Of a DNA stretch of 64,000 bases, positions 38,241 to 55,396 are shown in pieces. Each line of letters opens with the position of its first letter. Positions within the stretch are counted from its first letter, which is position 1. The position numbers were made by a program, and so were the translations under genes. Under the pieces are notes generated by a model that ran no database searches, was not told the origin of the DNA, and saw only the letters and a list, made by a program, of their open reading frames with translations. The stretch spans positions 8,148,001 to 8,212,000 of the forward strand of contig NZ_CP139247.1 of the NCBI RefSeq assembly GCF_034087045.1, in the 5' to 3' direction. The DNA is from Chitinophaga sancti. Lineage in GTDB: Bacteria; Bacteroidota; Bacteroidia; Chitinophagales; Chitinophagaceae.

Positions 38241-38307
38241 CAAATGTACGCCTGTTCTCATTTGTAGACAGATCGGATCGGGAAAAGAAAATACGCGATC
38301 GGGAAAA
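38241..38307 (-). promoter_or_regulatory. Heme-region promoter E: operator boxes plus -7 box before the phytochrome operon
   Basis: Forward coordinates, minus-strand use. -7 box TACATTTG at 38241-38248, 31 nt, then GGGAAAA at 38280, ACGC at 38293 and GGGAAAA at 38301. The two GGGAAAA boxes are 21 bp apart, like two direct half-sites on the same helix face. The same layout precedes four other genes in the heme region. It ends 9 bp before the stop of the S41 peptidase gene and faces the response regulator. Confidence 0.8.
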
Positions 38308-38315
38308 AATGAGCG

Positions 38316-39836
38316 TTATTTTGTGTGCAATCTATCCTCTATCATACCGGAAAATGAGGTCGGTCCCATGTGTATCAACGGCGTTACCGTTGTTGTAACA
38401 CCCGTTTTTCCGGACCCGGCCAGATAACCCAAAGCTGCTGCTATACAGGTCTCATTTGCATCTCCGAAATCATGCGTCACATCATCACTGGCAGCAATAT
38501 CAGGAGTCATACCCTGAAAATAATCACCATCCCCATTTGCATTCTGCATATAGAAGTTTGACATGTAAACTGTATAGGCGTCGATTTTAACACCAAAGAA
38601 ACCCACTGGCTTTCCATAGGTTTGACTACCTACCAGCTTCACGGTCAGGTAAGGTTTTAAACTGTTGATCACGAGTTCACTCGCAGAAGCAGTATTACCA
38701 CTTACGATGAAAACGACCTGCTTCACACTGTTCAAACTCCCTGCCTTACTGAATTTGTAAGTGTTACCACTTACTGAATAATCCAGATCAGCATAGGTAG
38801 CTGTATGACCATTATATTGAACAGTATTACCATTGGCATCCAGGTAAGTCTGTTGTTTTAAGATTGTTGCTTTACCATCCTGTAGCAGTTGATTGAAGTA
38901 TTCAGTATACATCACCTTATCTTTCAGAGAAGAAGGTGCAATGAGGTTGACCAGCTCTTCAGCAGTAGTCGTATACCCACCACCATTATATCGTAAGTCG
39001 ATGATGAGTGAGGTCACACCAGCGGCGGCAAACTTGCTGAATGCATTTTCCAGCGGCGTCTGCGAACTGGACAATACGGAGAAACGGCTATAGGCCAGGT
39101 ACCCCACTTTTGAAGAGCCGGCGGTCAGGACAGTATCCTTCATCACCGGACTTGTTGAGTAATTTGATTTCGTCAGATTCACCGTACCTGTCATTCCATT
39201 ATTGTCCACAATAGTCATGGATATTGAATTGCTGTTGAGTGCAGATTCAATAAAGGAAGTATTGGAAGTAGATACAGCAGTACCATTGATCTGTGTCACT
39301 TTGAAACCTCTCTGTAACCCGGCCAGTGCTGCAGGAGATTTGGGATTCACATACCGGATGCGGATGTCGGTGCTTGCGCTGAGACTCAGGCCGAAATCAT
39401 CCCCTTTATCCGTCAGGGAAACAGTAGCCAGCCGGTTACTGCCGGTCAGCGCAACACTACCACGGCGGCCACCGGTGAGTGAACCATCGTCAATAAAGGA
39501 ATATTTTGGCGTGCCGGCATAGCCAGAGTACTCATATGAGTAGCCGGTACTGGGATTGGTTTTTAACTGGGTAATGGCATACAGTTCCTTCTCGTAATTA
39601 GTCAATACACTACTGCCGGTAGCATACTGACGGGGATTGAAGGTAGTATAGTCAGGCAAAGCATCGTACCACAGGTATATCTGCTTTGCATAGAGATAAA
39701 TGGAGTCGAGCGTGAATTGCTCACGGGTGCCTGTAGTCGGGGATACGGGTGTTTCAGTATCAGTATCGTGGTCCTTACGACAGGCTACGAATATAGTGGC
39801 ACAGGATAGGAGTGCAATAAGAATGGGTTGTTTCAC
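38316..39836 (-). CDS. S41 family peptidase lipoprotein
   Basis: 506 residues with a lipoprotein signal (LLSCATIFVAC). A PDZ-like segment (LQRGFKVTQINGTAVS) precedes the tail-specific-protease core. The catalytic Ser is in SGNTASASE (about 382) and the Lys in TYGKPVG (about 408); the substrate-contacting VTSLIIDLRYNGGG is intact. C-terminal processing peptidases act in the periplasm or at the cell surface. It is downstream of the HmuY-like genes but behind a terminator. A role in processing heme-carrier proteins is speculation from its position. Confidence 0.92.
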   Translation of the reverse strand: MKQPILIALLSCATIFVACRKDHDTDTETPVSPTTGTREQFTLDSIYLYAKQIYLWYDALPDYTTFNPRQYATGSSVLTNYEKELYAITQLKTNPSTGYSYEYSGYAGTPKYSFIDDGSLTGGRRGSVALTGSNRLATVSLTDKGDDFGLSLSASTDIRIRYVNPKSPAALAGLQRGFKVTQINGTAVSTSNTSFIESALNSNSISMTIVDNNGMTGTVNLTKSNYSTSPVMKDTVLTAGSSKVGYLAYSRFSVLSSSQTPLENAFSKFAAAGVTSLIIDLRYNGGGYTTTAEELVNLIAPSSLKDKVMYTEYFNQLLQDGKATILKQQTYLDANGNTVQYNGHTATYADLDYSVSGNTYKFSKAGSLNSVKQVVFIVSGNTASASELVINSLKPYLTVKLVGSQTYGKPVGFFGVKIDAYTVYMSNFYMQNANGDGDYFQGMTPDIAASDDVTHDFGDANETCIAAALGYLAGSGKTGVTTTVTPLIHMGPTSFSGMIEDRLHTK

Positions 39837-39900
39837 CAGAGTGGATTTTAATGGAATTTACAAAAAAAACAACATTTTTGAATTTTTTAGCGGCGCTATC

Positions 39901-39945
39901 CAAAAGACAACAGCTTCCGTCGTAGGCGGAAGCTGTTGTCTTTTG
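39901..39945. terminator. 19-bp perfect hairpin after the HmuY-type gene
   Basis: CAAAAGACAACAGCTTCCG at 39901-39919 is exactly inverted at 39927-39945 around a 7-nt loop, 15 bp after the HmuY-type stop codon on the minus strand. Confidence 0.8.
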
Positions 39946-39960
39946 TCATTTAAAACCTAA

Positions 39961-40662
39961 TTATTTCGTTGTTAAATCTGTACTTCCCTTAGCAGAAATA
40001 AAGTATTTAAACGTCCAATACCCAAAGTCGTTCTGATGAATCGTCACAGTTGGCGTCGCTGGTGCTCCTTTGTAAATACTTACATACTGGAACTTCACAT
40101 ACCTGCCATCATTCAGCTTAAAGACAAACACCGTCGTCTTAGGAAAATTGAAATACATCAAATCCCCTGTTTCAGTATTAAATACCGGTTGAGACACATC
40201 CATACCCACCGTATGAATAAACTCACTCTCCGCAGGTGCAGCCGTGATCTTATCAAATGTCGTATCCTCATACCCCACCACCTTCACATCCGAAGCATTC
40301 ATGGCAAACTTATCCACGCCATCCCAGTAATTAGGCGCGGTACCTCCCCAATTGGGAGCCATACTCAAACCAGACCCCTGGAAAGCCAGATCCCATGAAG
40401 CCGTATTAATACTATCCTCCCCTGCACCAACCAATCCCATTTTCGCAAAACTAAACAGATTATAATCCAGTGTAGATGCTGTAGGTACAGGCAGACTATT
40501 CACCTCTACCACTCCACTCACTTTGATAGTTACATATTCATTCACAATCGAATCTTTCTTTTCCTCCACAGGTGTCACATCCGTGTCTTTATCATCTTTA
40601 CAGGCGAAGATAGCCCCTGTCAGACACAGTGTTAAAAAAGCATACTTGAATTGCAGTTTCAT
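39961..40662 (-). CDS. HmuY-family lipoprotein
   Basis: 233 residues with a lipoprotein signal (LTLCLTGAIFACKDD). HmuY signatures: a WDLAF-type strand (SWDLAFQGSGLSM), the FKLNDGRYVKFQYVSIYKG strand pair, and a closing WTFKYFISAKGSTDLTT. HmuY proteins bind heme on the cell surface and pass it to a TonB receptor. This is the last of five lipoprotein genes that follow the TonB receptor at 43825-46020. Confidence 0.9.
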   Translation of the reverse strand: MKLQFKYAFLTLCLTGAIFACKDDKDTDVTPVEEKKDSIVNEYVTIKVSGVVEVNSLPVPTASTLDYNLFSFAKMGLVGAGEDSINTASWDLAFQGSGLSMAPNWGGTAPNYWDGVDKFAMNASDVKVVGYEDTTFDKITAAPAESEFIHTVGMDVSQPVFNTETGDLMYFNFPKTTVFVFKLNDGRYVKFQYVSIYKGAPATPTVTIHQNDFGYWTFKYFISAKGSTDLTTK

Positions 40663-40718
40663 TTCATTATTTGTTTAAAAAAATACAGGAAAACGGCCTC
40701 CCGGCTATACCTCACCCC

Positions 40719-41450
40719 TTACAGTGCCTGGTACTGGAAGTTATAGTATGGATAGTTGGTAGCAGAGCTACCTGCATTAGGTGTGCTGTTGGAATAAATG
40801 CTGGTGATGCTCACCTTCCATACAGCTTTACCAGTAGTACGATCTTTCAGGATCAGTGTACGTGGTTGATGTGCAGTTACAATATGGCTGGAAATATCAT
40901 AATCATACCAGCCGGTACCAGCGCTCACAAGTACAGCGCCCATGTAAATATTGTTTGTACCCAGTTTACCACCCGGAGCAGCAATCGTAGTTACACCTTT
41001 GGCAGTAGCGAAAGCAGTATCCTGGTAGTTCAGCGTATAAGTGCTGGAATAAGCATAGATATCACCATTTGCACTACCGGTGAAACGCAGGGTATAACTC
41101 ACAGTAGTCGCATTTACTGAGTCACCACCTACGTTGGTAGCCAGGTTGAAATAATAAGTGCTCGCGACATTTGACCATTGTGTGCTGTCAGCTGGCGCAG
41201 TTACAGTACCCTGGGCAAAGTTGGTAACAGTGTATACTGATCCGGATCTGGATACAGTACCTTTTGTTTTGCTGGCATACGGACCAGCTACGGACAGATC
41301 AATAGAACCACCATCTGGTACCGTTACAGCCAGACCACCACCTACAGTGAGGCCGCTGTTAGGTGTAGTTACGTCATCTTTTTGGCAGGAAGAAAATAAA
41401 GCAATAGTTCCCGCTACCAGCAGGGCAGCGCTAAAACGAAGTGTTTTCAT
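40719..41450 (-). CDS. Lipoprotein, distantly HmuY-related
   Basis: 243 residues with lipoprotein signal (TIALFSSCQKDD). It is beta-rich and shares the end-strand pattern of its neighbours (KAVWKVSITSIYSN, then YPYYNFQYQAL). It lacks the WDLAF strand and is Gly/Thr-rich in the middle. Its N-terminal part resembles that of the 46334-47350 lipoprotein. Position in the run makes a role in heme capture or hand-over likely, but the family call is weaker than for the others. There is a 176-bp gap to the gene upstream. Confidence 0.7.
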   Translation of the reverse strand: MKTLRFSAALLVAGTIALFSSCQKDDVTTPNSGLTVGGGLAVTVPDGGSIDLSVAGPYASKTKGTVSRSGSVYTVTNFAQGTVTAPADSTQWSNVASTYYFNLATNVGGDSVNATTVSYTLRFTGSANGDIYAYSSTYTLNYQDTAFATAKGVTTIAAPGGKLGTNNIYMGAVLVSAGTGWYDYDISSHIVTAHQPRTLILKDRTTGKAVWKVSITSIYSNSTPNAGSSATNYPYYNFQYQAL

Positions 41451-41626
41451 TAGATTTGTATTTTAAGAATTTTCAATAGTATGGCATCTTGTGTGGGACA
41501 GCATTTTCCCGGGCGCTATCAGGACCGTCACATCCAGCGTCTGTGGTGAATGCAGCCTGCATAAGGCCATACTTCTTTTTCCAATTAGTGGTTATTCCCG
41601 GTCACCGGCCGTTTCCTGTATAGTAT

Positions 41627-42367
41627 TTATTTTGTGTTTGTCTTCAAATTCAAATCCCCCTTCGTCTCCTGCACATAATATCTAAAATTAAACCAGGGCG
41701 CCAGGTTCTTCGTATGCTCATCTTTATAATCAGGCGCTGTCGCCGGGTTATCCTTATACAAATTCACCAGCTCCACCTTCACATACCTGTTATCCTTCAA
41801 CAAAAAGATCAAAGACCTATCCTTATAAGGCACCAACGAATGATCACTAAACTGATAATACCCCCAGCTATCAATCACATCATTTATATCAAAAGAAATC
41901 GGCACACTATTCCTGATCATAGAATCCGCCGGCGCTGCTGTCAACTCATCAAACGCAGTTCTCACCACCCTGATCTTCCCCAATCCATTCTTCCCCTCAG
42001 CGGTAGCCGCATCCGCATTTATCTGTGAGTTATAAATGCTGTTGAACATGATATGCCATGTCGCTTCACCATCCACCGCAGCAGCACTATCCACTGCCTT
42101 GTGCGTATCAAAATTAAAATACCATGCACGATGCCCTTCTGATGCACCATGCCCTACATCCGGAGCGGGGTAATTCACCACATATACCACATTGTATTGC
42201 TCATCCAGGTAAATATGTTCATCCAATTGCTTCACACGGCTGGGTACCCAGTTGGTCCCTTCTAAATAAGTTTCTGCAGGTGTAGTCGTATCATTGTACT
42301 TTCCACAGGAGCAAACAAAGAACAGTGTCAGTGCCAGCAAACTATTGGTTAAATGTCTTATCGCCAT
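41627..42367 (-). CDS. HmuY-family lipoprotein
   Basis: 246 residues with signal and lipobox (LTLFFVCSCGKYND). The HmuY pattern is clear: WHIMFNSIYNSQINADAA, SWGYYQFSDHSLVPYKDRSL and FLLKDNRYVKVELVNLYKD. Its start lies 26 bp inside the 3' end of the preceding paralog, so the genes are translationally coupled. The paralogs differ strongly in loops, which suggests different heme-carrier or heme ligands. Confidence 0.9.
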   Translation of the reverse strand: MAIRHLTNSLLALTLFFVCSCGKYNDTTTPAETYLEGTNWVPSRVKQLDEHIYLDEQYNVVYVVNYPAPDVGHGASEGHRAWYFNFDTHKAVDSAAAVDGEATWHIMFNSIYNSQINADAATAEGKNGLGKIRVVRTAFDELTAAPADSMIRNSVPISFDINDVIDSWGYYQFSDHSLVPYKDRSLIFLLKDNRYVKVELVNLYKDNPATAPDYKDEHTKNLAPWFNFRYYVQETKGDLNLKTNTK

Positions 42368-43127
42368 CTTTATTGATCGTGTATTTAAAAGTGATATAAG
42401 GTGCAGCAGTATGAATATCCGGGTTGGCCGGGTTATCTTTATAAAAACTATAGATCATCAGTTTTGCATAATTCCCCTTCGCTGTTTTAATAATAATAGT
42501 ACGTGGCAACCCATACACCACATGGGCTTTCTCACTATCACCCGGATACATCTGTCCATAGAAATCATAAAAGGCATATCCATTTGTACTCCCATTAAAA
42601 TGATCCAAAGTGAGATAACCATTTATCAACAGATCAGCATCTGCCACAGGAACATTCGTCACTTTATTAAACGCCTCTTCCATTAAACTCTCAGCAATAG
42701 GTACAGCAGCAGGGCGCTGGTTTTCATAATCGAAATATTGCTTATCAATCGCACTATCTACCACCAGGTAAATGCCCCCTTGGCCAGGTCCACCCTTACC
42801 AGGATTGTAAGTAGCCGTACCATTATTCGCCCATACACTACTGTTGTAAATGCTGGCAAATGCAATGTCCCATTTATCAGTTGCGGCATAAGCATCGGGT
42901 ATCACACGGCCATCTTCCAGGCTATAGTATACAGTTTTGAAAGCAGCGCTACCACCTGCTCTCGCTACAGTATCGCCCGCCAGGTTATGCACAGTATACG
43001 TACCACTGGCAGTCACAGTCACCGCAGGTAAATCAGGTAAAGCAGGATCGTCCTTTTTATCCTTATCCGAACAGGATGCGAATAAAAAGGCGGTTAACAG
43101 CAAGAAAGATATACGCATTAGTATCAA
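42342..43127 (-). CDS. HmuY-family lipoprotein
   Basis: 261 residues, signal and lipobox (LLTAFLFASCSDKD). Carries WDIAFASIYNSSVWANN, a glycine-rich loop (YNPGKGGPGQGGIYLV) shared with the upstream paralog, YAFYDFYGQM and IIIKTAKGNYAKLMIYSFYK. It overlaps the upstream gene by 4 bp and the downstream gene by 26 bp. HmuY-type heme-binding surface protein by family; its own ligands were not identified. Confidence 0.92.
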   Translation of the reverse strand: MILMRISFLLLTAFLFASCSDKDKKDDPALPDLPAVTVTASGTYTVHNLAGDTVARAGGSAAFKTVYYSLEDGRVIPDAYAATDKWDIAFASIYNSSVWANNGTATYNPGKGGPGQGGIYLVVDSAIDKQYFDYENQRPAAVPIAESLMEEAFNKVTNVPVADADLLINGYLTLDHFNGSTNGYAFYDFYGQMYPGDSEKAHVVYGLPRTIIIKTAKGNYAKLMIYSFYKDNPANPDIHTAAPYITFKYTINKDGDKTFNQ

Positions 43128-43819
43128 GGTGTTTTCAGGTTATGACTACCATCCTGCTGTACAAAATAGCGGAAGGTGAAATAGGGTGCCGGCCAGAAAA
43201 GATCAGTCACAGCAGGAGGATTTCCCTGGTATACATTGATCAGTTCCAGCTTTCCATATTTACCATCTGCTGTGCGGATGATAAACGTGCGGTTCTTAAT
43301 AGGCACAGCCAGGTGTGTGTTCAGCGAATAGAAATACCAGCCGGTATTATAAGGTTGTGGATAACCATCCCATCCTGCAAAACGAAGATTCCCCGTTTCG
43401 AATGCATCCTCTTCGGGAGCTGTCGTCACTTTGCTATAAGCAGTATCTACAGCGATGATCAGTCCCTTTCCGGAACCACCTTTTCCAGGTCCTTCTCCAC
43501 TACCATTATTCACATATACGAGGGCGTTATAGATATCTGTAAAAGCAAGATCCCAGTTACTACTTTGCTTAAAGGTATTGCTGCTATCCCATGATTGCAG
43601 TTTGGCAGACAGCTTGAAATAAAAACTCCTGAACGGGCGTTTCTCTTTTCCTTCCACACCATCCGCCACAGAGGCTTCAGTATCGCCGGCAAGGTCGTAG
43701 ATGACAGTGCTCACGCCATCTTCATAATTTAGTTTGGTAACGTTGTTGTCATCTTTCTTACAGGCCATAGTCAGCAGTACGATGGCTGCTAACCATTGCC
43801 ATTGGGCTCGCTTGTACAT
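43124..43819 (-). CDS. HmuY-family lipoprotein
   Basis: 231 residues with signal and lipobox (IVLLTMACKKDD). Carries WDLAFTDIYNALVYVNN, a glycine-rich loop (EGPGKGGSGKGLIIAV), WYFYSLNTH and FIIRTADGKYGKLELINVYQ. It begins 5 bp after the TonB receptor stop and overlaps the next paralog by 4 bp. It is the paralog directly coupled to the receptor and so the best candidate for the receptor's primary heme carrier. Confidence 0.93.
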   Translation of the reverse strand: MYKRAQWQWLAAIVLLTMACKKDDNNVTKLNYEDGVSTVIYDLAGDTEASVADGVEGKEKRPFRSFYFKLSAKLQSWDSSNTFKQSSNWDLAFTDIYNALVYVNNGSGEGPGKGGSGKGLIIAVDTAYSKVTTAPEEDAFETGNLRFAGWDGYPQPYNTGWYFYSLNTHLAVPIKNRTFIIRTADGKYGKLELINVYQGNPPAVTDLFWPAPYFTFRYFVQQDGSHNLKTP

Positions 43820-43824: not shown

Positions 43825-46020
43825 TTATTGTTTAAACAGTCGCCATTTTAACCCGGCCATCAAAATTCGTCCGGGTTGTCCTGGCATCAACATATCGGTG
43901 TAATTCATGAGGTTGTCTGCTGTGATCTGAACAGCCAGGTGACCTTTGCAAAGCTTCTTTTCGATAGAAGCATATACCAGGCAGTAGGCATCAATGAATG
44001 TATCGTAGGTATCCAGAAACCGGTTATTGTTTGCATCATCATAGCCAGACCTGCTCTTATAATTCGCACGTAAAGTAGTGTTGATGCCCCAGGGAGCATA
44101 TTCATAAAACACACGTAGGTTGAGCATATGCCGGGATCGGTTTTCAAGACCTATGTAATCACTAACTTTGGATGCCCTCGTTTCTCCTGTATTATTGTTA
44201 CGTATCTTATTGTATGGATAGGCGCCGGTCCTGATAGAATCCATGATACCTTTATCCTTTGCATACAGTAACTGGTAGCCGAAAGATACTTCCAGTCCTT
44301 TCAGTACATGTGTACTGACACTGGCTTCTACACCACCGGTAAAAGATCTGTCAAGATTGATATAGGAATAAACAGGTTGAAAATTTGTGCGGGTCGCAAT
44401 CTGAACAGTGTTGATAAAGTTGTGCAGCTGGTTGTAAAAGCCATTCACATTCATGCGGATGTTTTTAACAGGTGCATAACTCATTCCAACATTGTAAGAG
44501 ACAGCCATTTCAGGTTTCAGTGCAGCACTGATATCTTTTGCCACAGGTCTTACCTCACTGATCAAACCTGCTGCCTGCATGGTGGCTAACTGAGTAGCCA
44601 CTTCTTCCACACCCAATACGGTATATCCTGCCTGTGGATTGGTAAACACCTGGTATCTCTTCTGAAAATCAGGTGTTTTATAACCAGTACCAAAAGCAGC
44701 GGTCAATGCTATTTTTTCTGACAGGCTATAATTCAATCCAGCGCTGGGATTAAGTCTGCCGCCATAAAAATCAGAATGGTCATAGCGGAAACCCAAACGG
44801 GAACTCAGGCGGTCATTTACTTTCCAGTCTCCTTGTGCATAGGCATACTCACTTTTTAAATCATTCCCATCCATCACTTCGAGATTACCTCCTATGCCAC
44901 CGGTAAATGATAACTGATTGGAAACAACATACTGCACCTGCTCCTCAAAGCGATGATAGTATTGCGTAAAATCATTTGAGCTCAGTTGTGCAGACTTACC
45001 TGTACTTACATCCTGTGTAGTGCTATATCTTGTCAGGTAGTACTGTGTTTTTAGTAGCCAGCCTTTATTCGGGTTAGCTGTCCGGCCTTTATCCTTGTTA
45101 GCTATCCGGCCTTTATTCAGGTTAGCTATCCTACCTTCATCCTGGTTAGCCCTACGACCTTTACTCAGGTTAGTCTGCCAGACGATCGATCCATTCACAT
45201 CAGTTTCATGCAGTACATCCCTGGTGGTATTCGTCACCTGGCTACTGCTATAGACAGATTCATTGATTGAATTACGGAGTGCCCATCGACCGGCGATGTT
45301 CAAGGAATTGTTAGCATTCAATTTATACCGAAGCCGGCCCTGCAGACTATAACTATCATAGGGAGGTGCGGTCGCACCTTTGCTCAGGAATGAATTCACA
45401 TTGTAGCCATCGGTATGATAATAATTACCGGATAGGTTGAGGGAACCGTTTTTATCATCAAATGGTGTTTCCCCTTCCAAAGTAAAATCCTGCGTATGCT
45501 GCGAGCCATATCTTACAATAGCCTGCCCCTGTGCTGCATCAATATGTTGGCGGGTAATAATATTCACAACCCCTCCCAACGCCTCACTCCCAAACAAACT
45601 CGAGCTGGCTCCCTTCACAATTTCAATTCTTTCAATATCAGCAACAGTAATCCTTGATAAATCGAAATTACCTGCATTTCTACCTATCATAGGTTGACCA
45701 TCAATTAAAATCAGGATATAATCAGCGCTAAAACCCTGTAGTTGCATACCAATTGCCCTCGACCCTGCAGAGACATCATTGACAATCGCAATACCCGTCT
45801 GTTCCCGCATCACCTCATCCAGTCGGCGGCTACCCATCATTTCCAGTGTCTTGCGACTAATCACAGTCACAGGCATGGCAGCTCTGCTGGTAAGTGTTTC
45901 CAGGTGCACGGCTTTGACTTCCACACTTTTTAAAGTACGGGAGGTATCGGATTGACTAAAGGCACACAAACTGCTACAACACAATATGAAGAGCGTGTAT
46001 AAATCTTTGCTGGTACGCAT
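43825..46020 (-). CDS. TonB-dependent receptor, heme-uptake (HmuR/BtuB-like)
   Basis: 731 residues. Signal peptide (LFILCCSSLCAFSQ), TonB box region near SVEVKAV, plug with SLFGSEALGGVVNIITRQ, and a 22-strand barrel ending MAGLKWRLF. There is no STN or regulatory-like N-terminal domain. It lies directly upstream of HmuY-type genes, as hmuR does in Porphyromonas. A run of 8-residue repeats (about residues 281-319: KGRRANQD, EGRIANLN, KGRIANKD, KGRTANPN) is inserted between two barrel strands. Promoter A lies 72-138 bp upstream. Confidence 0.92.
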   Translation of the reverse strand: MRTSKDLYTLFILCCSSLCAFSQSDTSRTLKSVEVKAVHLETLTSRAAMPVTVISRKTLEMMGSRRLDEVMREQTGIAIVNDVSAGSRAIGMQLQGFSADYILILIDGQPMIGRNAGNFDLSRITVADIERIEIVKGASSSLFGSEALGGVVNIITRQHIDAAQGQAIVRYGSQHTQDFTLEGETPFDDKNGSLNLSGNYYHTDGYNVNSFLSKGATAPPYDSYSLQGRLRYKLNANNSLNIAGRWALRNSINESVYSSSQVTNTTRDVLHETDVNGSIVWQTNLSKGRRANQDEGRIANLNKGRIANKDKGRTANPNKGWLLKTQYYLTRYSTTQDVSTGKSAQLSSNDFTQYYHRFEEQVQYVVSNQLSFTGGIGGNLEVMDGNDLKSEYAYAQGDWKVNDRLSSRLGFRYDHSDFYGGRLNPSAGLNYSLSEKIALTAAFGTGYKTPDFQKRYQVFTNPQAGYTVLGVEEVATQLATMQAAGLISEVRPVAKDISAALKPEMAVSYNVGMSYAPVKNIRMNVNGFYNQLHNFINTVQIATRTNFQPVYSYINLDRSFTGGVEASVSTHVLKGLEVSFGYQLLYAKDKGIMDSIRTGAYPYNKIRNNNTGETRASKVSDYIGLENRSRHMLNLRVFYEYAPWGINTTLRANYKSRSGYDDANNNRFLDTYDTFIDAYCLVYASIEKKLCKGHLAVQITADNLMNYTDMLMPGQPGRILMAGLKWRLFKQ
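45062..45177 (-). repeat. 24-bp in-frame tandem repeat inside the TonB receptor gene
   Basis: About 4.8 copies of a 24-bp unit (forward consensus CCTTTATTCAGGTTAGCTAT plus four more bases). It encodes 8-residue repeats of the type KGRIANKD between two beta strands, probably lengthening a loop. Confidence 0.85.
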
Positions 46021-47391: not shown

Positions 47392-49452
47392 TTATTTCCT
47401 GTTCCACGTAAAACTCACCCCCAAAAAGTAACTCCTCCCATACCACATTGGCAACTGCGTCCCCGCACTATGTGCCACTCCACTATTCACCGTACTATTA
47501 TTAATATTCGTCACATTGAATATATTCCTCACCCCTGCATTAATATTGAACAACTTTGTCAACGACTTCACCACTGTAAAATCAGCCATATGATAAGCCG
47601 CCGACTTCACCTGGTGCAAATAAGTGGTACCATCCGTAGCCGTCGCCGACTCATACGTAGGTCTCACACCATTATATTTATAAGACAGGTTCAGCGTAGT
47701 CCCAATCTTCCTCATATTATAAGTAACATTCCCATTCAGCTCCGGCGTCCACATAAAAGTTGGCGTAGGATCTAACGTTTTGTAAGTATCATCATCAGAG
47801 AATTCATTGTATCTACCAATGTAAGAAGCCCCTACACTCACATCCAGGTTTTTCCAATTGAGCTTTCCCATCAGCGTTCCACCCGTAGTTTTAAATTTGG
47901 CAATATTCACATAAGTCATCGTATCACTATTCGCCACATACGCATAGTCAATCATGTTATCAAAGTCATTATAGAAACCGGTCGCAGTTACATTCAATTT
48001 CACGTTCCCTGCCTGAATCGCCTGCCAGCTCAATGATCCCGTAAAACTGTTAGAATATTCCGCCTTCAGGTTAGTATTCCCTTTAATAGCATGACTCGCA
48101 TCAAAGAAATTAAAATACAACTCACGCAAAGCCGGCGCCCTAAAACCACGGGCATACGACAACCGCAGATCCAATGTCTTAGACAATGCAAATTTTACAT
48201 TCAAAGAAGGTATCACCGGGGGCGCATCGTAAATAGAATTCTTACTAAATCGAACACCCGGGCGGATGTTGATACCTCTGGTTGGTTTTAATTCAGCAGA
48301 AGCAAAAAGGGAATAGTTAGAAATACTGGGCGTACCATCTATACGCTGTCCGGAAGAGGCATCACGACTATATTCAACACCCGGCTGAAAAGACAAATGA
48401 GCATTCAGGGAATACTGCGCTGTACTTCTAAAGAACAAAGCATTGTATTTAGTCACATCCTGCGTACCGGAAGCGGTAGATAAAGTCTCCGTCCCATCGG
48501 TAAAGTTTTTAATAGTAGTACGTGTATGTCTATTGTAATCCTGGTAAGACATAGCACCATTAATACTCAGGTCATCATTCACCTGCCACATCGCCTGTGC
48601 CTGGTGTGTATATCTTTTAGTCAGATAATGAGCATCTGTCGCTTTTCCATTATCATAATTAATATCTCCTTTTGCAGCCAGGTCTTCATCCAGGTAATCA
48701 AGACGATACCAGGCCTTCACATTTTTCCTGTCAATACCCACTGTACCATAAGTCATCAACTGATCCTTCGGATGCCAAGCCTTGGCGCGTCCAGTCAGTG
48801 TATCACTCCATCCGCCAAAATTATTTCCCGTAATACCTGCACCTGCAAAATAACCATGATCACTCCAGCGCAATCCCAACGATGCATTGTGTTGACCGTT
48901 ACCATCCAGTGCTGCATATTCTTTGCCCACGGTTTCTTCCTGTACACTCGCATTTACAGACAATTGCTTATCGCCATTATACTTCTTTGTAATAATATTA
49001 ATCACACCTGCGAGTGCATCTGTACCATAGACAACAGACATCGGTCCTTCTACAATCTCAATACGTTCAATACTATGTACATCAATCTGGGCAAGGCTCT
49101 GCCGGGTACTTCCACGATCTACCAATGGCACACCATCCAGTAAGATCTTCACTTCTGCACCAGACATTCCCATGAGTTCCACATCAGTTTCGCCCAAAGT
49201 GTTATCATTAGAAAAACGAATACCCAACTGATTATCCAGCACACCTAAAATGTTTGTAGCCCCCCGCATTTTAATATAATCTGCAGTAATGGTCCTCACC
49301 TGGTATACAGAATGCTTTAATGATTGTGGGGTGTATTGTCCTGTCACCACAACATCATTTAGCTGTACCGAATCCATTCCTTTATTAATCTGAGCATTGC
49401 TTTCGTACGAACATGCGAATAGCAAGGCTAATAGAATTACCCTAAACTTCAT
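47392..49452 (-). CDS. TonB-dependent receptor of the heme-uptake region
   Basis: About 686 residues from MKFRVILLALLFACSYESNA (ATG at 49452), a clear signal peptide; the frame stays open to 49656 but that part is leader RNA downstream of promoter B. Plug signatures: SVQLNDVVVTGQYTPQ, EIVEGPMSVVYGTDALAGVI. Barrel ends WYGRSYFLGVSFTWNRK, a normal terminal strand. It pairs with the following HmuY-like lipoprotein. Ligand by context is heme or a hemoprotein. Confidence 0.92.
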   Translation of the reverse strand: MKFRVILLALLFACSYESNAQINKGMDSVQLNDVVVTGQYTPQSLKHSVYQVRTITADYIKMRGATNILGVLDNQLGIRFSNDNTLGETDVELMGMSGAEVKILLDGVPLVDRGSTRQSLAQIDVHSIERIEIVEGPMSVVYGTDALAGVINIITKKYNGDKQLSVNASVQEETVGKEYAALDGNGQHNASLGLRWSDHGYFAGAGITGNNFGGWSDTLTGRAKAWHPKDQLMTYGTVGIDRKNVKAWYRLDYLDEDLAAKGDINYDNGKATDAHYLTKRYTHQAQAMWQVNDDLSINGAMSYQDYNRHTRTTIKNFTDGTETLSTASGTQDVTKYNALFFRSTAQYSLNAHLSFQPGVEYSRDASSGQRIDGTPSISNYSLFASAELKPTRGINIRPGVRFSKNSIYDAPPVIPSLNVKFALSKTLDLRLSYARGFRAPALRELYFNFFDASHAIKGNTNLKAEYSNSFTGSLSWQAIQAGNVKLNVTATGFYNDFDNMIDYAYVANSDTMTYVNIAKFKTTGGTLMGKLNWKNLDVSVGASYIGRYNEFSDDDTYKTLDPTPTFMWTPELNGNVTYNMRKIGTTLNLSYKYNGVRPTYESATATDGTTYLHQVKSAAYHMADFTVVKSLTKLFNINAGVRNIFNVTNINNSTVNSGVAHSAGTQLPMWYGRSYFLGVSFTWNRK

Positions 49453-49628: not shown

Positions 49629-49695
49629 CAAAGATCATGAAGAATCTTTGCTTCATATAATCTGATCAGGAAAATGATTTACGCAATAAGGAAAC
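49629..49695 (-). promoter_or_regulatory. Heme-region promoter B (TonB receptor at 47392-49452)
   Basis: -7 box GATCTTTG (49629-49636, one mismatch), 31 nt, then AGGAAAA at 49668, ACGC at 49681 and AGGAAAC at 49689, boxes 21 bp apart. ACTCCGCC is 12 nt after the -7 box (49609-49616). The leader is about 170 nt. Confidence 0.78.
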
Positions 49696-50158
49696 TTTAA
49701 CGAATCGATTCTGAAACTTTAGTCTATCGATTTTGAAATCTTAGTATTCCAATTTCAAAACTTTAACGAATCGATTCTGAAATATTTGTATTCCAATTTT
49801 GAAGCTTTAGCGTATCAATTGTGAATTCTTAGTACTCCAATTTCAAAACTTTAACGAATCAATTCTGAAATCTTAGTATTCCAATTTTGAAACTTCAACT
49901 CATCAATTCTGAAACCTGGCACGTCTATCCAAAAAATTTAACCTGCCAATTCAGCAACCTAGCGTATCAATTCTGAAACCTGGCACGTCTATCCCCAAAA
50001 TTCAACCTGCCAATTCAGCAACCTAGCGTATCAATTCTGAAACCTGGCACGTCTATCCCCAAAATTCAACCTGCCAATTCAGCAACCTAGCGTATCAATT
50101 CTGAAACCTGGCACGTCTATCCCCAAAATTCAACCTGCCAACTCAGCAACCTATCGTA
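49691..50158. repeat. Degenerate 21-bp monomer array with a 64-bp higher-order repeat
   Basis: About 470 bp. Left part (49691-49910): monomers of 21-23 bp of the type AACTTTAACGAATCGATTCTGA alternate. Right part (49911-50158): a 64-bp unit made of three diverged monomers repeats almost without change, with copies starting at 49911, 49975, 50039 and 50103. It lies between the small Cys/His gene and the TonB receptor and reaches the last codons of the former. Confidence 0.92.
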
Positions 50159-50468
50159 TTAATTCATATACCTGCTGTAGCAGTAACGCCTCATCGATCG
50201 CATCTCTGAGGTCATTGAATTCATCCTGGGTAAAAGTGAAGCTGATATCCTTACAAGGAGCATGAATGATGACTCTTTCTTCCCCATCAGGGAATACCAT
50301 ACAACAATCTACAAAGTCTTGTCTATTCATCGTTTCACGAAAGAACTGAAATTCTTGTGGGGAGAAATTGAGTAACAAATTATTATGCCAGATAAAAACC
50401 GTCTGACAGTGCATACAATGGCTAATTTGTGCCGTATTCTTTATACATAAAGTCCTGATGTCACACAT
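50151..50468 (-). CDS. Small Cys/His-containing protein (possibly DUF6686 family)
   Basis: 105 residues, no signal peptide. A possible metal- or heme-binding cluster sits at ISHCMHCQTVFIWHNN, with a further MCDI/CIK pair at the start and CCM and CKD later. The rest is a mixed alpha/beta domain (LLNFSPQEFQFFRET, FTQDEFNDLRDAIDEALL). I believe Bacteroidetes relatives are catalogued as DUF6686, but I cannot verify it. It has an exact heme-region promoter (D) and sits between HemS and the TonB receptor, so a part in heme handling is likely. Confidence 0.8.
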   Translation of the reverse strand: MCDIRTLCIKNTAQISHCMHCQTVFIWHNNLLLNFSPQEFQFFRETMNRQDFVDCCMVFPDGEERVIIHAPCKDISFTFTQDEFNDLRDAIDEALLLQQVYELIR

Positions 50469-50518
50469 ATAATATCTTGTTTAAAAAATAGGGTTTCGTA
50501 GGATATTAATATGTGACA
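50459..50518 (-). promoter_or_regulatory. Inverted repeat over the start codon and promoter of the small Cys/His gene
   Basis: TGTCACACATATAATATC at 50459-50476 is nearly inverted at 50502-50518 (GATATTAATATGTGACA). One arm covers the start codon at 50468; the other touches the -7 box. It could be an operator or an mRNA hairpin hiding the start. Confidence 0.6.
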
Positions 50519-50583
50519 AAAGTAAGCGGGAATAAGAAAGGTGATGGATCGATTCGGGAAAAGGATTTACCTAAACGGGAAAA
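50517..50583 (-). promoter_or_regulatory. Heme-region promoter D (small Cys/His gene)
   Basis: -7 box TACTTTTG (50517-50524, exact), 31 nt, then GGGAAAA at 50556, ACCT in place of ACGC at 50569 and GGGAAAA at 50577; boxes 21 bp apart. Confidence 0.82.
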
Positions 50584-50804: not shown

Positions 50805-51839
50805 TTATAGCTTCGCAACCAACTCTCTCCACCCTTCTAACTCCGGATTCCCAGGCTTTCTTTTCCCAAAGAACTGTGCAATCATCTCCCCCTCTGCATC
50901 AAACACTTCTACCGAAGTCACCACACCATCCACACTTGGCTTCTGCACTGCCCAGCTCTGGGCAATATCATCCGTCTTCAAATGCAAATTAAAATCAGCA
51001 TCCATCACATTAATCCATCCTGGAATCTCCACAATCTTCTCCACCTTCCCTGTATGAATCTCAATATTCCCTGGATTACCCACAAACACCATGATCTCCA
51101 AACCACTCGCCGCCGCACGCTCTAATATCGTCTTCACACTTTCCTTACCTATCTTCCGCGTAAACTTCCCATCTCCAATCTCCAGGGCAAACGTGCGTGA
51201 AACTTTGTGTTTCATCAACAAAGGGAAGAAATCATGCGTATCCTGCAAACCAGCCCATCCTTCCAGGAAAGCCGCTTTATCCGCCGTCTCATTCGCATAC
51301 ACAGCCGGCGCCGGAGCAGGCAATACTGTAATTCCCAATGGTTGTTCATCAGCTGTAAACGCTGCTATCAATTTATCCCATGCTGCAATATTTGTCTGTT
51401 CTACTGCATAGATCTTCAAAATCGCATTTCCCTGTGCATCAAAGATCTGGATAGAACGTTTGAACCCGGTTGCCGCATCATCATTCACTGCAAACCCAAA
51501 CTTCCAGCGACCAAAGAACATACGCAGGTCAATATCTTTTCCCAACACAGTACCTACATGTCTGCCAGCAGCATCCACCTGCTCGAACAAACCTTTCCTT
51601 TCAATCACACAATGTTCATTGCGTGTCAGCACCATTACCTTACCCAGGTCAGGCATACGTTCCATCAAATCCGGGAACGCAGCTTTCAGATGTTGAACAG
51701 CCGTACCAGTGCAGGCTGCTACCACCTCTCCCTCACTTACCTGCAATTGTTTTGCCGCATCGCGAATCCTTACTTTAGGATTTTCTGCCCGAAACGCGAT
51801 CCATTGATCTTTAAGAGTTGGTGTTACAATTTCATTCAT
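50805..51839 (-). CDS. hemS: Hemin-degrading factor / heme carrier HemS (ChuS/HmuS)
   Basis: 344 residues: two tandem HemS domains. N-terminal KDQWIAFRAENPKVRIRDAA; first half ends around IYAVEQTNIAAWDKLI. The heme-ligand histidine is expected in the domain-2 region (about 215-230; the visible candidate is HKVSRTFALE). The fold repeats are clear (VLGKDIDLRMFFGRWKFGFA and NVMDADFNLHLKTDDIAQSW). It accepts imported heme in the cytoplasm, and ChuS-type relatives cleave it. Three bases separate it from hmuV. Confidence 0.93.
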   Translation of the reverse strand: MNEIVTPTLKDQWIAFRAENPKVRIRDAAKQLQVSEGEVVAACTGTAVQHLKAAFPDLMERMPDLGKVMVLTRNEHCVIERKGLFEQVDAAGRHVGTVLGKDIDLRMFFGRWKFGFAVNDDAATGFKRSIQIFDAQGNAILKIYAVEQTNIAAWDKLIAAFTADEQPLGITVLPAPAPAVYANETADKAAFLEGWAGLQDTHDFFPLLMKHKVSRTFALEIGDGKFTRKIGKESVKTILERAAASGLEIMVFVGNPGNIEIHTGKVEKIVEIPGWINVMDADFNLHLKTDDIAQSWAVQKPSVDGVVTSVEVFDAEGEMIAQFFGKRKPGNPELEGWRELVAKL

Positions 51840-51842: not shown

Positions 51843-52688
51843 TTAAAAAACATTTAATGCCTTCCTGGCAGGTGATTGAAATAAACCAGTGGTAGCGGCG
51901 GTAACCACCAGCGGATAATTACATTGTGGATGCGACAATATTGACACCTCCACACCAAAACTATTTTTAATATGCGCAGAAGTAAACACGTCATCCACAG
52001 TACCCTGTGTATACAATGTTCCTTCTTTTAATAATATTATACGATGTGCAAATGCAGCGGCCAACTGAAAATCATGCAATACAGCCACCACCAATACCCC
52101 GGCAGCAGTCAGTTTCGTCGCTAGTTGCAAAGCCAGCTGTTCATGCAAAATATCCATTCCAGTCACTGGCTCATCCAACAACAACATTTTTTTACCAGTA
52201 TAATCCAGCTCCTGCAAACCCGGTGCCTCCAGCAACTGCGCTAATACTCTCGCCAACTGCACACGTTGCTTTTGCCCACCGGACAAGGTTGGATAAGCCC
52301 TGTCTTTCAGGTCATAGACTTGCATGATCTGCAATGCACTCTTCACAATTTCCTTATCCAGTGATTCCAAATTCCTGCTATATACATACCTTCCCATTGC
52401 TGCTACATCCTGCACAGAAAATGCCTGGTTCAATGTCACGTGCTGTGATAGTACAGCCCTGGTAGTAGCTTGCCTGGCAATTGGTATATTACGCAGTGCC
52501 TGCCCGGCAATCATCACGTCTCCTCTATAAGTTGGGTACTCACCGGCAACCACTTTCAGCAATGTCGATTTTCCTGCTCCATTGGCTCCCATGATTACAC
52601 AAAGCTCTCCTGCCGATGCATCAAAGCTGATCCCCTTGAGTATTGGCATTTTTCCCAGTGTGAGCGATATGTTTTTAATGTGCAACAT
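51843..52688 (-). CDS. hmuV: Heme ABC transporter ATPase HmuV
   Basis: 281 residues. Walker A GANGAGKSTLLK, Q-loop RAVLSQH, signature LSGGQKQRVQLARVL, Walker B KMLLLDEPVTGMD, H-loop VLHDFQLA. It is FecE/BtuD-like and powers the HmuU permease. It is close to hemS (3 bp) and separated from hmuU by an intergenic array of 47-bp repeats. Confidence 0.94.
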   Translation of the reverse strand: MLHIKNISLTLGKMPILKGISFDASAGELCVIMGANGAGKSTLLKVVAGEYPTYRGDVMIAGQALRNIPIARQATTRAVLSQHVTLNQAFSVQDVAAMGRYVYSRNLESLDKEIVKSALQIMQVYDLKDRAYPTLSGGQKQRVQLARVLAQLLEAPGLQELDYTGKKMLLLDEPVTGMDILHEQLALQLATKLTAAGVLVVAVLHDFQLAAAFAHRIILLKEGTLYTQGTVDDVFTSAHIKNSFGVEVSILSHPQCNYPLVVTAATTGLFQSPARKALNVF

Positions 52689-52770: not shown

Positions 52771-52910
52771 AATAACAACATCATGCCAGTATCATCTTCT
52801 GCTCCTTTGCAATCAGCAATAACAACATCACGCCAGTATCATCTTCTGCTCATTTACTAATCTGCAATAACAACATCAAGCCATTATCATTCTCTTCTCC
52901 TTTACAATCA
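52771..52910. repeat. 47-bp tandem repeat (three copies) between hmuU and hmuV
   Basis: Copies of AATAACAACATCACGCCAGT type start at 52771, 52818 and 52866 (47 and 48 bp apart). The last copy enters the 3' end of hmuU, whose stop is at 52876. Confidence 0.88.
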
Positions 52911-53931
52911 GCCAAATAAAAAACGGCGCACCAATCACAGCCGTAATAATCCCCACCGGCAATTCTGCAGGTGCAATCATCGTCCTACACAACAAATCGG
53001 CAATCGTAAGCAACACCGCACCTGACAACGCAGCACCAGGTATTAAAATTCTATAATCCGGCCCTGTAAACTGCCTCACAATATGCGGCACTATCAACCC
53101 AATAAATCCAATAATCCCTGCCACTGCCACGCCTGCCGCCACCGCCATGGTAGCCAATATCACCAACTGCACCTTTAACCGCGCTACCTTCACACCACTA
53201 TGCATCGCTTCTCTTTCACCTAAGGCCAGAAGATTGATCGCAGGCGCCAAACCAGGCAATAATATAACCGGTATTAATATAAAAGGTGTCACCCCCATCA
53301 CCGTCGTCCAACTCGCACCTCCCAAACTTCCCAATGACCAAAACGTAATACTTCTCAACTGTTCATTATTCGCCACATACGTCATCAAACCTGTCACTGA
53401 TTCACACAAAGCTCTCACCGCAATACCTGCCAATAACATAGTAGATATCACTGCCTGTCCGCCATTACGCGCTACTCTAAAAATAAACAGTGTCGTAAGA
53501 ATCGCTCCTGCAAAAGCAGAGAAGTTGAGCGAATAAAAATTCAGTAAGGGAACAGATTGAAATATTGGCAACGAACTTTGTACAATAATCATCACTACAG
53601 CAGCCATCGATGCACCGGAACTAATCCCGATCAAACCCGGATCAGCCAGTGGGTTTCGAAATAGCCCTTGCAGAGAAGCCCCTGCCACACCTAATCCCGC
53701 ACCAATCAACACACCTAATATTACACGCGGCAAGCGGATCATCCACAACACCCCTTCCATATTTTCTTCATAAAATACAGGGATATGGATACCTGCTTTG
53801 TGCAGAAGAATAGCCAGCACCTGCAGCGGTGACATATGCATGGCACCGGTACCTGTCGCAATGAGAATAACCAGTACCAATAGTATGCTAAGCCCACCAA
53901 TGGCACTGATATTCTTAAATATCTTATTCAT
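52876..53931 (-). CDS. hmuU: Heme ABC transporter permease HmuU (FecCD family)
   Basis: 351 residues with about ten TM helices, standard for the FecCD/BtuC family. Signatures: LPRVILGVLIGAGLGVAGAS, FRNPLADPGLIGISSGASMA, GFIGLIVPHIVRQFTGPD, and GELPVGIITAVIG-like AELPVGIITAVIGAPFF. It moves heme across the inner membrane with HmuV and HmuT. The C-terminal few codons fall in the 47-bp repeat array. Confidence 0.94.
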   Translation of the reverse strand: MNKIFKNISAIGGLSILLVLVILIATGTGAMHMSPLQVLAILLHKAGIHIPVFYEENMEGVLWMIRLPRVILGVLIGAGLGVAGASLQGLFRNPLADPGLIGISSGASMAAVVMIIVQSSLPIFQSVPLLNFYSLNFSAFAGAILTTLFIFRVARNGGQAVISTMLLAGIAVRALCESVTGLMTYVANNEQLRSITFWSLGSLGGASWTTVMGVTPFILIPVILLPGLAPAINLLALGEREAMHSGVKVARLKVQLVILATMAVAAGVAVAGIIGFIGLIVPHIVRQFTGPDYRILIPGAALSGAVLLTIADLLCRTMIAPAELPVGIITAVIGAPFFIWLIVKEKRMIMA

Positions 53932-53957
53932 TAACTATTCTGTTTAATAGCACGGTT

Positions 53958-54198: not shown

Positions 54199-54232
54199 AT
54201 TAATCATTAATCTTCCTGAAAATCCTCCCTTC

Positions 54233-55048
54233 CTAACTATTCAACTTCCCAGCCAATTCCTTCACTGCACTTATCACCCTGGGCCCAAAACCCGTCAACA
54301 AAGCCCCATCCATCACCACCACCTTCTTCTCCTTCCCGGCAGTCGTTTGCTGCACTCCCTGCACCTTCAGCAACCCATCAACTCCACCCATACTCTTCAA
54401 CCCATCATCAAACATCAAAATAATATCCGGATTAGCCGTCACCAACGCCTCCGGTGTCAATGGTTTAAAATCATTAAAACTATTAGCAGCATTCTGTGCT
54501 CCTGCCAGACTAATCATTTTTTCCGTAGGGGTTCCTGTACCCGCTACCAACATAGTCCCCGCACCACGTGCATATATAAATAACACCTTCTTACCAGTTG
54601 ACTTTATCTTCAATGCCGCCTGCTCTTTCTCCAATTGTTTAACAAGTGCAACACCTTTTGCCGGCACCTGCAACGCATCAGCCACTTCAGTAATCAACTT
54701 CTTAGTCCCTTCAATAGAAAATTCCTGTTTGAAAATCTGTGTCTTCACTCCCACAGTTTTAAACTGTTCAATCACAGCCGGCTGTAAAAAATTATCCGTC
54801 CCCAAAATCAGATCAGGATTAAGCGCCAACACTGGCTCTGCAGAGATATTTCTATTATGCCCTACTTTGGCAACCTGTTGCATGCTGGCAGGATAAGTAC
54901 TGGTTACATCCACCCCCACAATATTTTTCTCAAAACCCAATGCAACAACAATTTCAGTAACGGCGCCATTCAGGGAAACAATTCTCTTCTGGGCAAAAGT
55001 ATTCATCGCCACAAGTAATGTAGCGGTCAGGACGATCAAGCGGTTCAT
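54233..55048 (-). CDS. hmuT: Heme ABC transporter substrate-binding protein HmuT
   Basis: 271 residues with signal peptide (VLTATLLVAMNTFAQ). Two-lobed periplasmic-binding fold: KRIVSLNGAVTEIVVALGFE, NPDLILGTDNFLQPAVIEQF, GAGTMLVAGTGTPTEKM, and FGPRVISAVKELA. It carries heme from the outer-membrane receptors to HmuUV. First gene of the hmuTUV-hemS run. Its long leader has promoter C, an sORF and a terminator hairpin. Intergenic repeats separate it from hmuU by 301 bp. Confidence 0.93.
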   Translation of the reverse strand: MNRLIVLTATLLVAMNTFAQKRIVSLNGAVTEIVVALGFEKNIVGVDVTSTYPASMQQVAKVGHNRNISAEPVLALNPDLILGTDNFLQPAVIEQFKTVGVKTQIFKQEFSIEGTKKLITEVADALQVPAKGVALVKQLEKEQAALKIKSTGKKVLFIYARGAGTMLVAGTGTPTEKMISLAGAQNAANSFNDFKPLTPEALVTANPDIILMFDDGLKSMGGVDGLLKVQGVQQTTAGKEKKVVVMDGALLTGFGPRVISAVKELAGKLNS

Positions 55049-55071
55049 AAAATCTTTAAATAAGTTGATAG

Positions 55072-55114
55072 AAAAAATAATGGTTGACCCTACCCGGGGT
55101 TACGGGCCAACCAT
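55072..55114 (-). terminator. Terminator/attenuator hairpin in the hmuT leader
   Basis: ATGGTTG (55080-55086) pairs with CAACCAT (55108-55114) with CCC/GGG pairing inside; read on the minus strand it is followed by TATTTTTTC. It lies between promoter C and hmuT, so it could stop transcription before the structural genes. Confidence 0.7.
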
Positions 55115-55117
55115 CGC

Positions 55118-55198
55118 TCACCGGAAGCACTTTACTCCGCCATGCTCCGGCAAGGTTTCTTTAATATGTTTATTACAGTCAGGACATAGAAAACCCAT
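55118..55198 (-). CDS. Small ORF in hmuT leader with CPDC motif
   Basis: 26 codons from the ATG at 55198: it reads MGFLCPDCNKHIKETLPEHG and ends GVKCFR. Two cysteines as CxxC and a third near the end could bind metal. The frame is open upstream to near the predicted transcript start (no earlier ATG; a TTG gives about 44 residues). It ends 4 bp before the terminator hairpin. It might be a leader peptide or a small metal-binding protein. Coding status is uncertain. Confidence 0.4.
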   Translation of the reverse strand: MGFLCPDCNKHIKETLPEHGGVKCFR

Positions 55199-55320
55199 GA
55201 GGATATCAGTATCCCCTGACAGTAATTCAAGCCAATAAATATTGATTATCAACCAGCCTGAATGGTATGCGGAGATATACCAGAAAGGTCGATGATGTGC
55301 GGCGGAGTATTTGAGTAATG

Positions 55321-55396
55321 CAAAGCTATGTCATAGAAATGTAAAGCACTAATCGAATCGGGAAAATTTTATGACAATCTTTACGCAAAAAGAAAA
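55321..55396 (-). promoter_or_regulatory. Heme-region promoter C (hmuT)
   Basis: -7 box TAGCTTTG (55321-55328, exact), 31 nt, then GGGAAAA at 55360, ACGC at 55383 and AAGAAAA at about 55390. Box spacing is about 30 bp rather than 21, an added turn of helix. ACTCCGCC follows the -7 box by 12 nt (55301-55308). Confidence 0.78.

Follow-up and report, generated by a model that had tools for sequence, protein, structure and literature searches.

A shared operator-promoter element points to a genus-wide iron and heme acquisition regulon, probably under an AraC-family activator, in Chitinophaga

The AraC-type siderophore activators PchR, AlcR and YbtA each serve one siderophore locus and need that siderophore. 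Iron uptake is usually under Fur, RyhB-type small RNAs are iron-responsive through derepression from Fur, and the iron-sulfur (Fe-S)-sensing regulators RirA and IscR have an Rrf2 fold. Here, we describe five promoters in a 64,000-nucleotide (nt) stretch of the Chitinophaga sancti genome (the window; G000:C1:8148001-8212000, inside the 8.32-Mb single-contig genome G000) that share one operator-promoter element. With a probability of about 0.72, and reasoning from sequence, we assign them to one genus-wide iron/heme-acquisition regulon under a single AraC-family activator, for which a conserved AraC gene near gyrB is the candidate. The likeness to PchR, AlcR and YbtA consists of an AraC-family protein and a direct-repeat box upstream of TonB receptor genes; the differences are that the operator serves about 14 places in its own genome, RNA genes among them, and that the candidate protein has a cysteine cluster. 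Those conserved cysteines in a regulator of iron genes recall RirA and IscR, but the fold is AraC rather than Rrf2 and Fe-S binding is putative. As with RyhB, predicted small RNAs lie under an iron-uptake control site; unlike RyhB, the three considered here (S1, S2 and S3) would be activated, if our reading is right, and have no Rfam match over the gathering score.

For the Bacteroidota, excerpts of two papers call the mechanisms of iron homeostasis largely unknown and knowledge of their regulation scarce (PMC9478572, PMC10434189). An excerpt of the former presents MliR of Bizionia as MerR-like and without conserved metal-binding sites (PMC9478572); it resembles the regulator proposed here as a non-Fur activator of iron uptake in Bacteroidota and differs in being MerR-like. 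CdhR, whose mechanism is called unclear (excerpt of PMC10434189), and PgFur are regulators of Porphyromonas tied to hmuYR or heme, and neither is described as an AraC protein with this operator in the portions of PMC10434189, PMC6613475 and PMC4222909 at hand. Among the open-licence papers listed, we found no description of the operator, the regulator or the RNAs, and among the matches listed for AraC-family Fe-S sensing none concerned this system by title and abstract start.

On the minus strand of the window, each of five sites carries a TTTTCCC or TTTTCCT box, exactly 31 nt, and then a -7 box of the TAnnTTTG type (TACATTTG at 38241, TACTTTTA at 46092, GATCTTTG at 49629, TACTTTTG at 50517 and TAGCTTTG at 55321), exact in three sites and with one mismatch in two. 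At all but the last site, that of hmuT, a second TTTTCC box lies 21 base pairs (bp) upstream, with GCGT (ACGC on the other strand) between the boxes in three of these four sites and AGGT (ACCT) in one, and the full operator reads TTTTCCC-nnTTGCGTAAA-nnn-TTTTCCC-N31-TAnnTTTG. This bears out the layout given in the original prediction: a 31-nt spacing at five sites with three exact and two one-mismatch -7 boxes, a second box 21 bp further at four sites and about 30 bp further at hmuT (shifted 10 bp more), and ACGC in three sites, ACCT in a fourth and ACGC one turn later at hmuT. All on the minus strand, the elements occupy 38241..38307 (promoter 1; distal TTTTCC 38302-38307, proximal TTTTCCC 38280-38286, -7 box 38241-38248), 46092..46158, 49629..49695 and 50517..50583 (promoters 2 to 4, each with the box pair and the 21-bp repeat), and 55318..55397 (promoter 5, hmuT; -7 box 55321-55328, proximal TTTTCCC 55360-55366, distal half-site displaced outward by 10 bp relative to the other four). 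Scanning the window for TTTTCC-N32-TANNTTTG and allowing one mismatch, we obtained six matches, the five sites and 8316; shuffles gave a mean of 0.65 matches, and none of 100 reached six. The 21-bp TTTTCC repeat likewise had six window matches, four at the sites and two at 56091 and 56112, against 0.46 expected.

The half-sites are direct and 21 bp apart, TTTTCCC plus TGCGTAAA one turn on, and TTTTCCCGATnnGAT; judged by sequence, two direct half-sites about 21 bp apart near a promoter would suit an AraC/XylS-type activator. At hmuT the distal half-site (TTTTC..TTGCGTAAAG) is displaced outward as a whole, by 10 bp in four genomes (ours, G014, G007 and G015) and by 9 bp in a fifth, G008 (five loci examined), with the proximal half-site and its spacing to the -7 box unchanged in these five. 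Because the distal half-site moves whole by about one helical turn, each half-site appears to be one unit. AraC dimers have flexibly linked DNA-binding domains, and the displacement at hmuT would fit a dimer of this kind. A TAnnTTTG -7 box at -12 to -5 is known for Flavobacterium, according to an excerpt of PMC9723704. With the -7 box in that position the operator ends at about -35, and since it adjoins the -33 region of promoters that keep their -7 box, activation is the natural reading.

Copies of the operator recur across the genome. A stricter first pattern matched nothing, window sites included. With at most three mismatches, TTTTCC-N15-TTTTCCC-N5-GAT-N23-TANNTTTG had nine matches in the whole genome, four of them window sites (the hmuT site is not recovered by this pattern), and none in the reversed control; TTGCGTAAA, which the pattern left unspecified, lies between the boxes in four of the five new matches, and the fifth sits inside an open reading frame (ORF). 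Without the -7 box the pattern matched 12 times against 0 in the control, and at all three new intergenic operator-only matches (24133, 2061096 and 2837070) a -7 box with one mismatch stands exactly 31 nt away. Matches at 3362464, 1553066 and 6810049 were judged to be chance because they lie inside ORFs. R1, a sequence-only model of 11 sites, found its 11 training sites, as it must (promoter 1, a training sequence, at 43.6 bits), together with hmuT at 27.2 bits and 6317997 at 27.9 bits; of 40 matches with an expectation (E) value of at most 10, only the partial match 5632592 was otherwise below 0.001 (150 of 2576 first-look candidates scored). Outside the window, operator copies precede TonB receptors (1502635, 2837070 and 4844414), a PepSY_TM protein (24133) and a SelR protein (431343), and at 2061096 and 5779496 a terminator-like hairpin stands in place of a downstream ORF. 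The half-length match at 5632592-5632621 (L045; E 8e-4) has the opposite orientation and lies, by eye, upstream of a gene resembling those for TonB receptors.

The operator is also conserved in other genomes. R1 found strong sites in each of the 18 congeners searched (lowest E value of a genome between 1.5e-7 and 1.3e-13), matches at E of 0.01 or less in 43 of 60 same-family genomes (17 without), and, at E of 1 or less, matches in all 11 genomes from other families of the order, the best at 0.004 and the others at 0.01 or weaker, up to 0.12. We rescanned 80 congener loci (0.99 Mb) from 14 of the 18 congeners with an operator-only matrix and obtained 114 matches scoring at least 11, compared with four in reversed sequence (maximum 18.4). 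Of the 101 matches scoring at least 14, 76 have the -7 box at 31 nt and nine have it at 32 nt, a count that is not independent, as R1, which includes the -7 box, had picked the loci; 11 of the 101 lack a box fitting five of six positions, and other distances scatter, none occurring more than four times (one row can count at two distances).

The first gene downstream of 93 congener sites scoring at least 24 is a TonB receptor in 43, PepSY_TM in 12, DUF6686 in six, the response regulator of a phytochrome/heme-oxygenase run in three, HmuT in one and a gene not assigned at first in 18; ten sites have no ORF, seven of these being S1 or S2. Pfam searches of ten of the 18 gave two TonB receptors, a HmuY protein, an extracytoplasmic function (ECF) sigma factor, a pyridine-nucleotide oxidoreductase, two DUF4198-type proteins (one under the cut-off) and three TauD matches under the cut-off; the AraC of genome G001 and an ABM-family protein account for two more, and at least two of the last six (no Pfam run) look like spurious ORFs. 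In other genera, the best -7 box is 31 nt away at 17 and 32 nt away at nine of the 28 best-per-genome R1 sites, with a TonB receptor as first gene in 15, DUF6686 in one and no assignment by this test in 12. The genome-wide matrix scan and list of downstream genes thus yielded mainly TonB receptors, PepSY_TM, DUF6686, heme oxygenase and hmu genes, and not the random positions unrelated to iron or heme that would have spoken against the predicted heme/iron regulon; its sites recur throughout the genus before TonB receptors, PepSY_TM, hmu and heme oxygenase genes. As a side observation, the ECF sigma factor gene in G007 (L129 7403-7972, minus strand) is the first gene past its operator copy, hinting at a FecI-type layer below the operator regulon.

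No regulator gene was found in the window or right beside the strong own-genome sites; for the window this agrees with the earlier statement, there being no AraC HTH_18 match in 8148001-8212000. A protein search with the G001 AraC found a second AraC, present in 19 of 19 Chitinophaga genomes and 75-99.7% identical to our own copy (G000:C1 838799-839719, minus strand), which lies near gyrB with an operator downstream, 7.3 Mb from the window by coordinate and about 0.95 Mb if the contig is circular. Beyond its start lies gyrB in 19 of 19 genomes; past its opposite end, ileS falls inside the stretch fetched in 16 of them. Past the gene, a same-strand variant of the operator occurs in all 19 genomes and leads into the S3 segment; its distance from the stop is 4-187 bp except in one genome, where it is 1001 bp.

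We searched 198 genomes of the order with an alignment of this AraC. Among the matches listed, 35 same-family genomes reached E of 1e-20 or less (31 at 4e-73 or better); the best match in other families was 2.8e-45, and matches there start at residue 85 or later. Downstream of the AraC gene and on its strand, six of 28 same-family loci from other genera have an operator match of at least 15 (L226 38.6, L233 36.4, L227 25.7, L230 18.0, L228 17.7 and L223 15.0); counted from the match end it lies 10-66 nt away, save in L228, where the distance is 612 nt. The next gene by Pfam is a TonB receptor in five of the six and, in L230, DUF6686, the same family as the gene under the window promoter at 50517. 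A weaker match in L231 (10.4) lies ahead of a PepSY_TM gene, the match of 22.5 in L247 falls within the AraC gene itself, and the remaining 21 loci lack a match of at least 15. In two genomes an independent, genome-wide R1 search also put a site immediately behind the AraC gene, namely G131 (E 9e-4; the locus of L223) and G038 (E 3e-4; L232, matrix 10.2). Regulators of the PchR type have their gene next to the receptor that they control; here, operator and TonB receptor follow AraC in five of the 28 other-genus loci, and the neighbor in Chitinophaga is S3. With an operator past the AraC gene in 19 of 19 Chitinophaga genomes and in six of 28 other-genus loci, these sequence data support the single activator that had been proposed from the equal spacing, and the AraC type tentatively suggested by the two direct half-sites.

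The candidate protein has an HTH_18 domain at 227-302 (71.2 bits; cut-off 33.6), placing the helix-turn-helix at the C-terminus as in AraC/XylS proteins. An AlphaFold2 model of a 98% identical homolog (mean predicted local distance difference test score, pLDDT, 81; predicted template modeling score 0.54) has a beta-rich, cupin-like N-domain, a helical linker and helix-turn-helix domains. Its top Foldseek matches are Rns, CsvR and ToxT, a likeness at the level of domains given whole-chain template modeling scores of about 0.3 and a root-mean-square deviation near 19 A; further matches are AraC-type DNA-binding domains, including those of AraC, MarA and SoxS. Cysteines C74, C81, C91 and C98 are shared by all 29 family members in the alignment, most of which have another at 86-88, and among 55 homologs C74, C81, C91, C195 and C301 are invariant, with C86 and C236 kept at 90% or more.

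The sequence comparisons argue strongly for the operator, its spacing, the membership of the regulon, the RNA genes and the synteny. Gene neighborhood points to the conserved AraC as the regulator, which would bind the operator, and the functions of the genes suggest iron or heme limitation as the signal. We propose that an AraC dimer at the half-sites would recruit RNA polymerase, since the operator reaches to about -35 and so borders on the -33 region. The N-terminal cysteines could provide the conserved ligands of an Fe-S iron sensor, and the cluster in the cupin-type N-domain may sense iron status as an Fe-S cluster or bound metal. The operator would also drive S1, S2 and S3, and these RNAs might add a post-transcriptional, iron-sparing arm. 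In a tentative extension, to which we give somewhat less than even odds, the cysteine-cluster AraC would take the place of Fur as master iron sensor in the family Chitinophagaceae; with its Fe-S or metal site unoccupied, the protein would activate about a dozen uptake operons and, in Chitinophaga, up to three iron-sparing small RNAs.

Several observations weigh against these assignments. The S3 operator consists of TTTTCC, mostly CGATCATT or similar, and TTTTCCC, TGCGTAAA being present at most sites elsewhere, and its -7 box, after 31 nt, ends in TTTG with CA or TT replacing TA in 19 of 19 genomes; because the middle box and -7 box differ, the AraC beside S3 might bind a related, not identical, site. 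No operator match of at least 15 follows the AraC gene in 22 of the 28 other-genus loci, SelR (methionine sulfoxide reductase) is no obvious iron gene, and two Fur-superfamily proteins above the Pfam cut-off are present, which leaves some room for Fur-type control. The cysteine-loop segments 87-90 and 92-97 fall below pLDDT 50, C98 falls outside the columns conserved at 90% among the 55 aligned homologs, and cysteines 195, 236 and 301 in the DNA-binding half are equally conserved, for which reasons the cysteines may have zinc-related or structural roles.

Further, the genome has 129 HTH_18 matches and the G001 AraC (L115 4593-5582, minus strand), which adjoins a TonB receptor, has its own operator copy; a paralog could for these reasons be the true binder. 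In that case a different AraC, for example a PchR-like one next to receptors, would control the regulon and the conserved AraC would be a neighbor or target, an explanation that the divergent middle box at S3 would also suit. Relatives of the G001 protein, 53-72% identical, occur in seven other congeners and are patchy (eight of 19 genomes), whereas the cysteine-cluster AraC is found in 19 of 19 genomes with an operator after each and recurs before operators in other genera; we regard control by a paralog as unlikely. The G001 AraC was dropped as master regulator because its close relatives are patchy.

Returning to the operator regulon under the conserved AraC, its sites also precede at least three apparently non-coding RNAs, and the sequence evidence for these genes is strong. 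S3, a segment of 198-223 nt downstream of the operator and -7 box in 19 of 19 genomes, has blocks invariant in all of them (AAGCTTCCTTAT-AGATTTGACC, GTAAAGCCAT and ACACCA) and a terminator hairpin, and its length changes are not multiples of three. RNAalifold paired the terminator and a short 5' hairpin, with 8 of 11 pairs changed on both sides in at least one sequence. With at most two mismatches, the S3 core was found in 6 of 6 Chitinophaga genomes and 0 of 288 other genomes of the family sample; the exact core occurs in 50 records, 49 of them Chitinophaga and one [Flexibacter] sp. ATCC 35208 (named collection). S1 (own 5779388-5779490, minus strand) and S2 (own about 2061166-2061245, plus strand) each follow an operator copy and occur in six and four genomes, respectively, among the loci examined. 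The 15-nt S1 core GAGTTGGTCGTACAA, which has no operator letters, is present once in 27 of 60 Chitinophaga genomes and absent from the reversed control, and every one of these 27 loci, located by the RNA core alone, has an operator upstream (scores 26.7-42.1; six of the 27 genomes supplied the core); 26 of them have the -7 box at 31 nt and one has it at 32 nt. For the spacing, these loci and the three own-genome sites located by operator alone are a less biased test than the R1-picked congener loci. Random windows, drawn from loci holding real sites, scored at least 20 in 2 of 400. With operator, promoter and terminator present, S1 and S3 are predicted to be independent short transcripts.

It is improbable that these segments are instead untranslated stubs or very short peptide genes, as the S3 blocks, non-triplet length changes and compensatory terminator changes argue for regulatory RNAs, and in S1 the 5' part has diverged but GAGTTGGTCGTACAA has not (as the query of that search, this 15-mer is invariant by construction). 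On the side of stubs or peptides, we identified no RNA targets, S2 was seen in four genomes only among the loci examined, S1 covariation is scant (three of ten predicted pairs changed on both sides; 21 of 27 sequences), and the automatic terminator call for S1 was weak or failed in 5 of 27 loci (L340, L343, L344, L350 and L355). Rfam gave only sub-gathering matches for the S1 and S2 loci and none at the gathering score for three S3 loci.

Direct repeats about 21 bp apart are also bound by LytTR response regulators, so that the period of the operator would suit such a protein as well. An excerpt of PMC9478572 names MliR as an iron activator in a Bacteroidetes species. Still, the distal hmuT half-site shifts as a unit by about one helical turn (10 bp in four genomes, 9 bp in one), as would flexibly linked AraC dimers, and the repeated neighbor is an AraC gene (LytTR and MliR genes were not searched for), which makes a LytTR or MerR-type MliR homolog a very improbable binder. 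Least credible of all is control by Fur with an incidental repeat: two PF01475 matches (45.7 and 42 bits; cut-off 23.1) speak for it. Against it, the classical Fur box GATAATGATAATCATTATC has no window match with at most three mismatches (a diverged box would escape this search), and one Fur-superfamily gene adjoins, by eye, a gene for a CobW-like GTPase. Zur genes often have such a neighbor, and this one may therefore respond to zinc and not to iron. The two Fur-superfamily genes (L250 and L251) lie at G000:C1:986344 and 4637953.

For the regulon under the conserved AraC, the candidate regulator, exact operator, target list and conserved small RNA genes open the question to direct tests in a soil genus. 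An iron-sensing cysteine cluster would make the protein an iron sensor of the AraC family; RNAs that spare iron would amount to a RyhB analogue in the phylum, of which there was none among the literature matches listed. Were the protein the master sensor, the system would be an activator-driven counterpart of the Fur-RyhB circuit.

All genes under the five window promoters lie on the minus strand, gene runs being taken from same-strand order and families from Pfam. The hmuT promoter at 55321 heads a run of HmuT, a periplasmic binding protein (54233..55048; Peripla_BP_2 2.2e-37), HmuU, a FecCD permease (52876..53931; FecCD 7e-91), HmuV, a heme ABC ATPase (51843..52688; ABC_tran, and NCBIfam heme ABC transporter ATP-binding protein at 263.5 bits, cut-off 261), and a HemS/ChuX heme-handling protein (50805..51839; HemS 5e-81). 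The hmuT 5' leader (55065..55318), kept in five of five genomes examined, contains a long-range helix (UACUCCGCC/GGCGGAGUA) and, just ahead of hmuT, a hairpin resembling a terminator. The leader could act on the heme transport operon as an attenuator or a riboswitch; eight of nine helix pairs are identical in all five genomes, hence no covariation, and the leader has no Rfam match at E of 1 or less.

Promoter 4 precedes a 105-amino-acid DUF6686 protein (50151..50468; 8.9e-7). Under promoter 3 lie a TonB-dependent receptor (47392..49452; barrel 1.7e-33, Plug 1.5e-20), whose best NCBIfam match is TonB-hemin at 9e-37, under its cut-off, and a HmuY-family protein (46334..47350; HmuY 3e-19). The 754-amino-acid ORF called at 49656 overlaps the promoter at 49629, and the receptor likely starts at a later ATG near 49452. 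Promoter 2 precedes a TonB-dependent receptor (43825..46020; TonB_dep_Rec 2.4e-34, Plug 4.8e-22) and five further genes (39961..43819), four with HmuY matches (two just under the Pfam cut-off) and one (40719-41450) with no Pfam match.

The first gene under promoter 1 encodes a receiver-domain response regulator (37582..38031; Response_reg 2e-19), followed by a heme oxygenase (36946..37515; Heme_oxygenase 2.4e-18), a bacteriophytochrome with PAS_2-GAF-PHY domains (35395..36906; PHY 2.8e-46) and, last in the run, a CheB/CheR-PAS-histidine kinase (30850..35352; CheR, CheB, PAS and HATPase_c). These four genes (30850-38031) would stand under one iron/heme promoter, which suggests that light sensing is linked to heme supply, and the arrangement of operator and response regulator is also present in genomes G014, G013 and G007.

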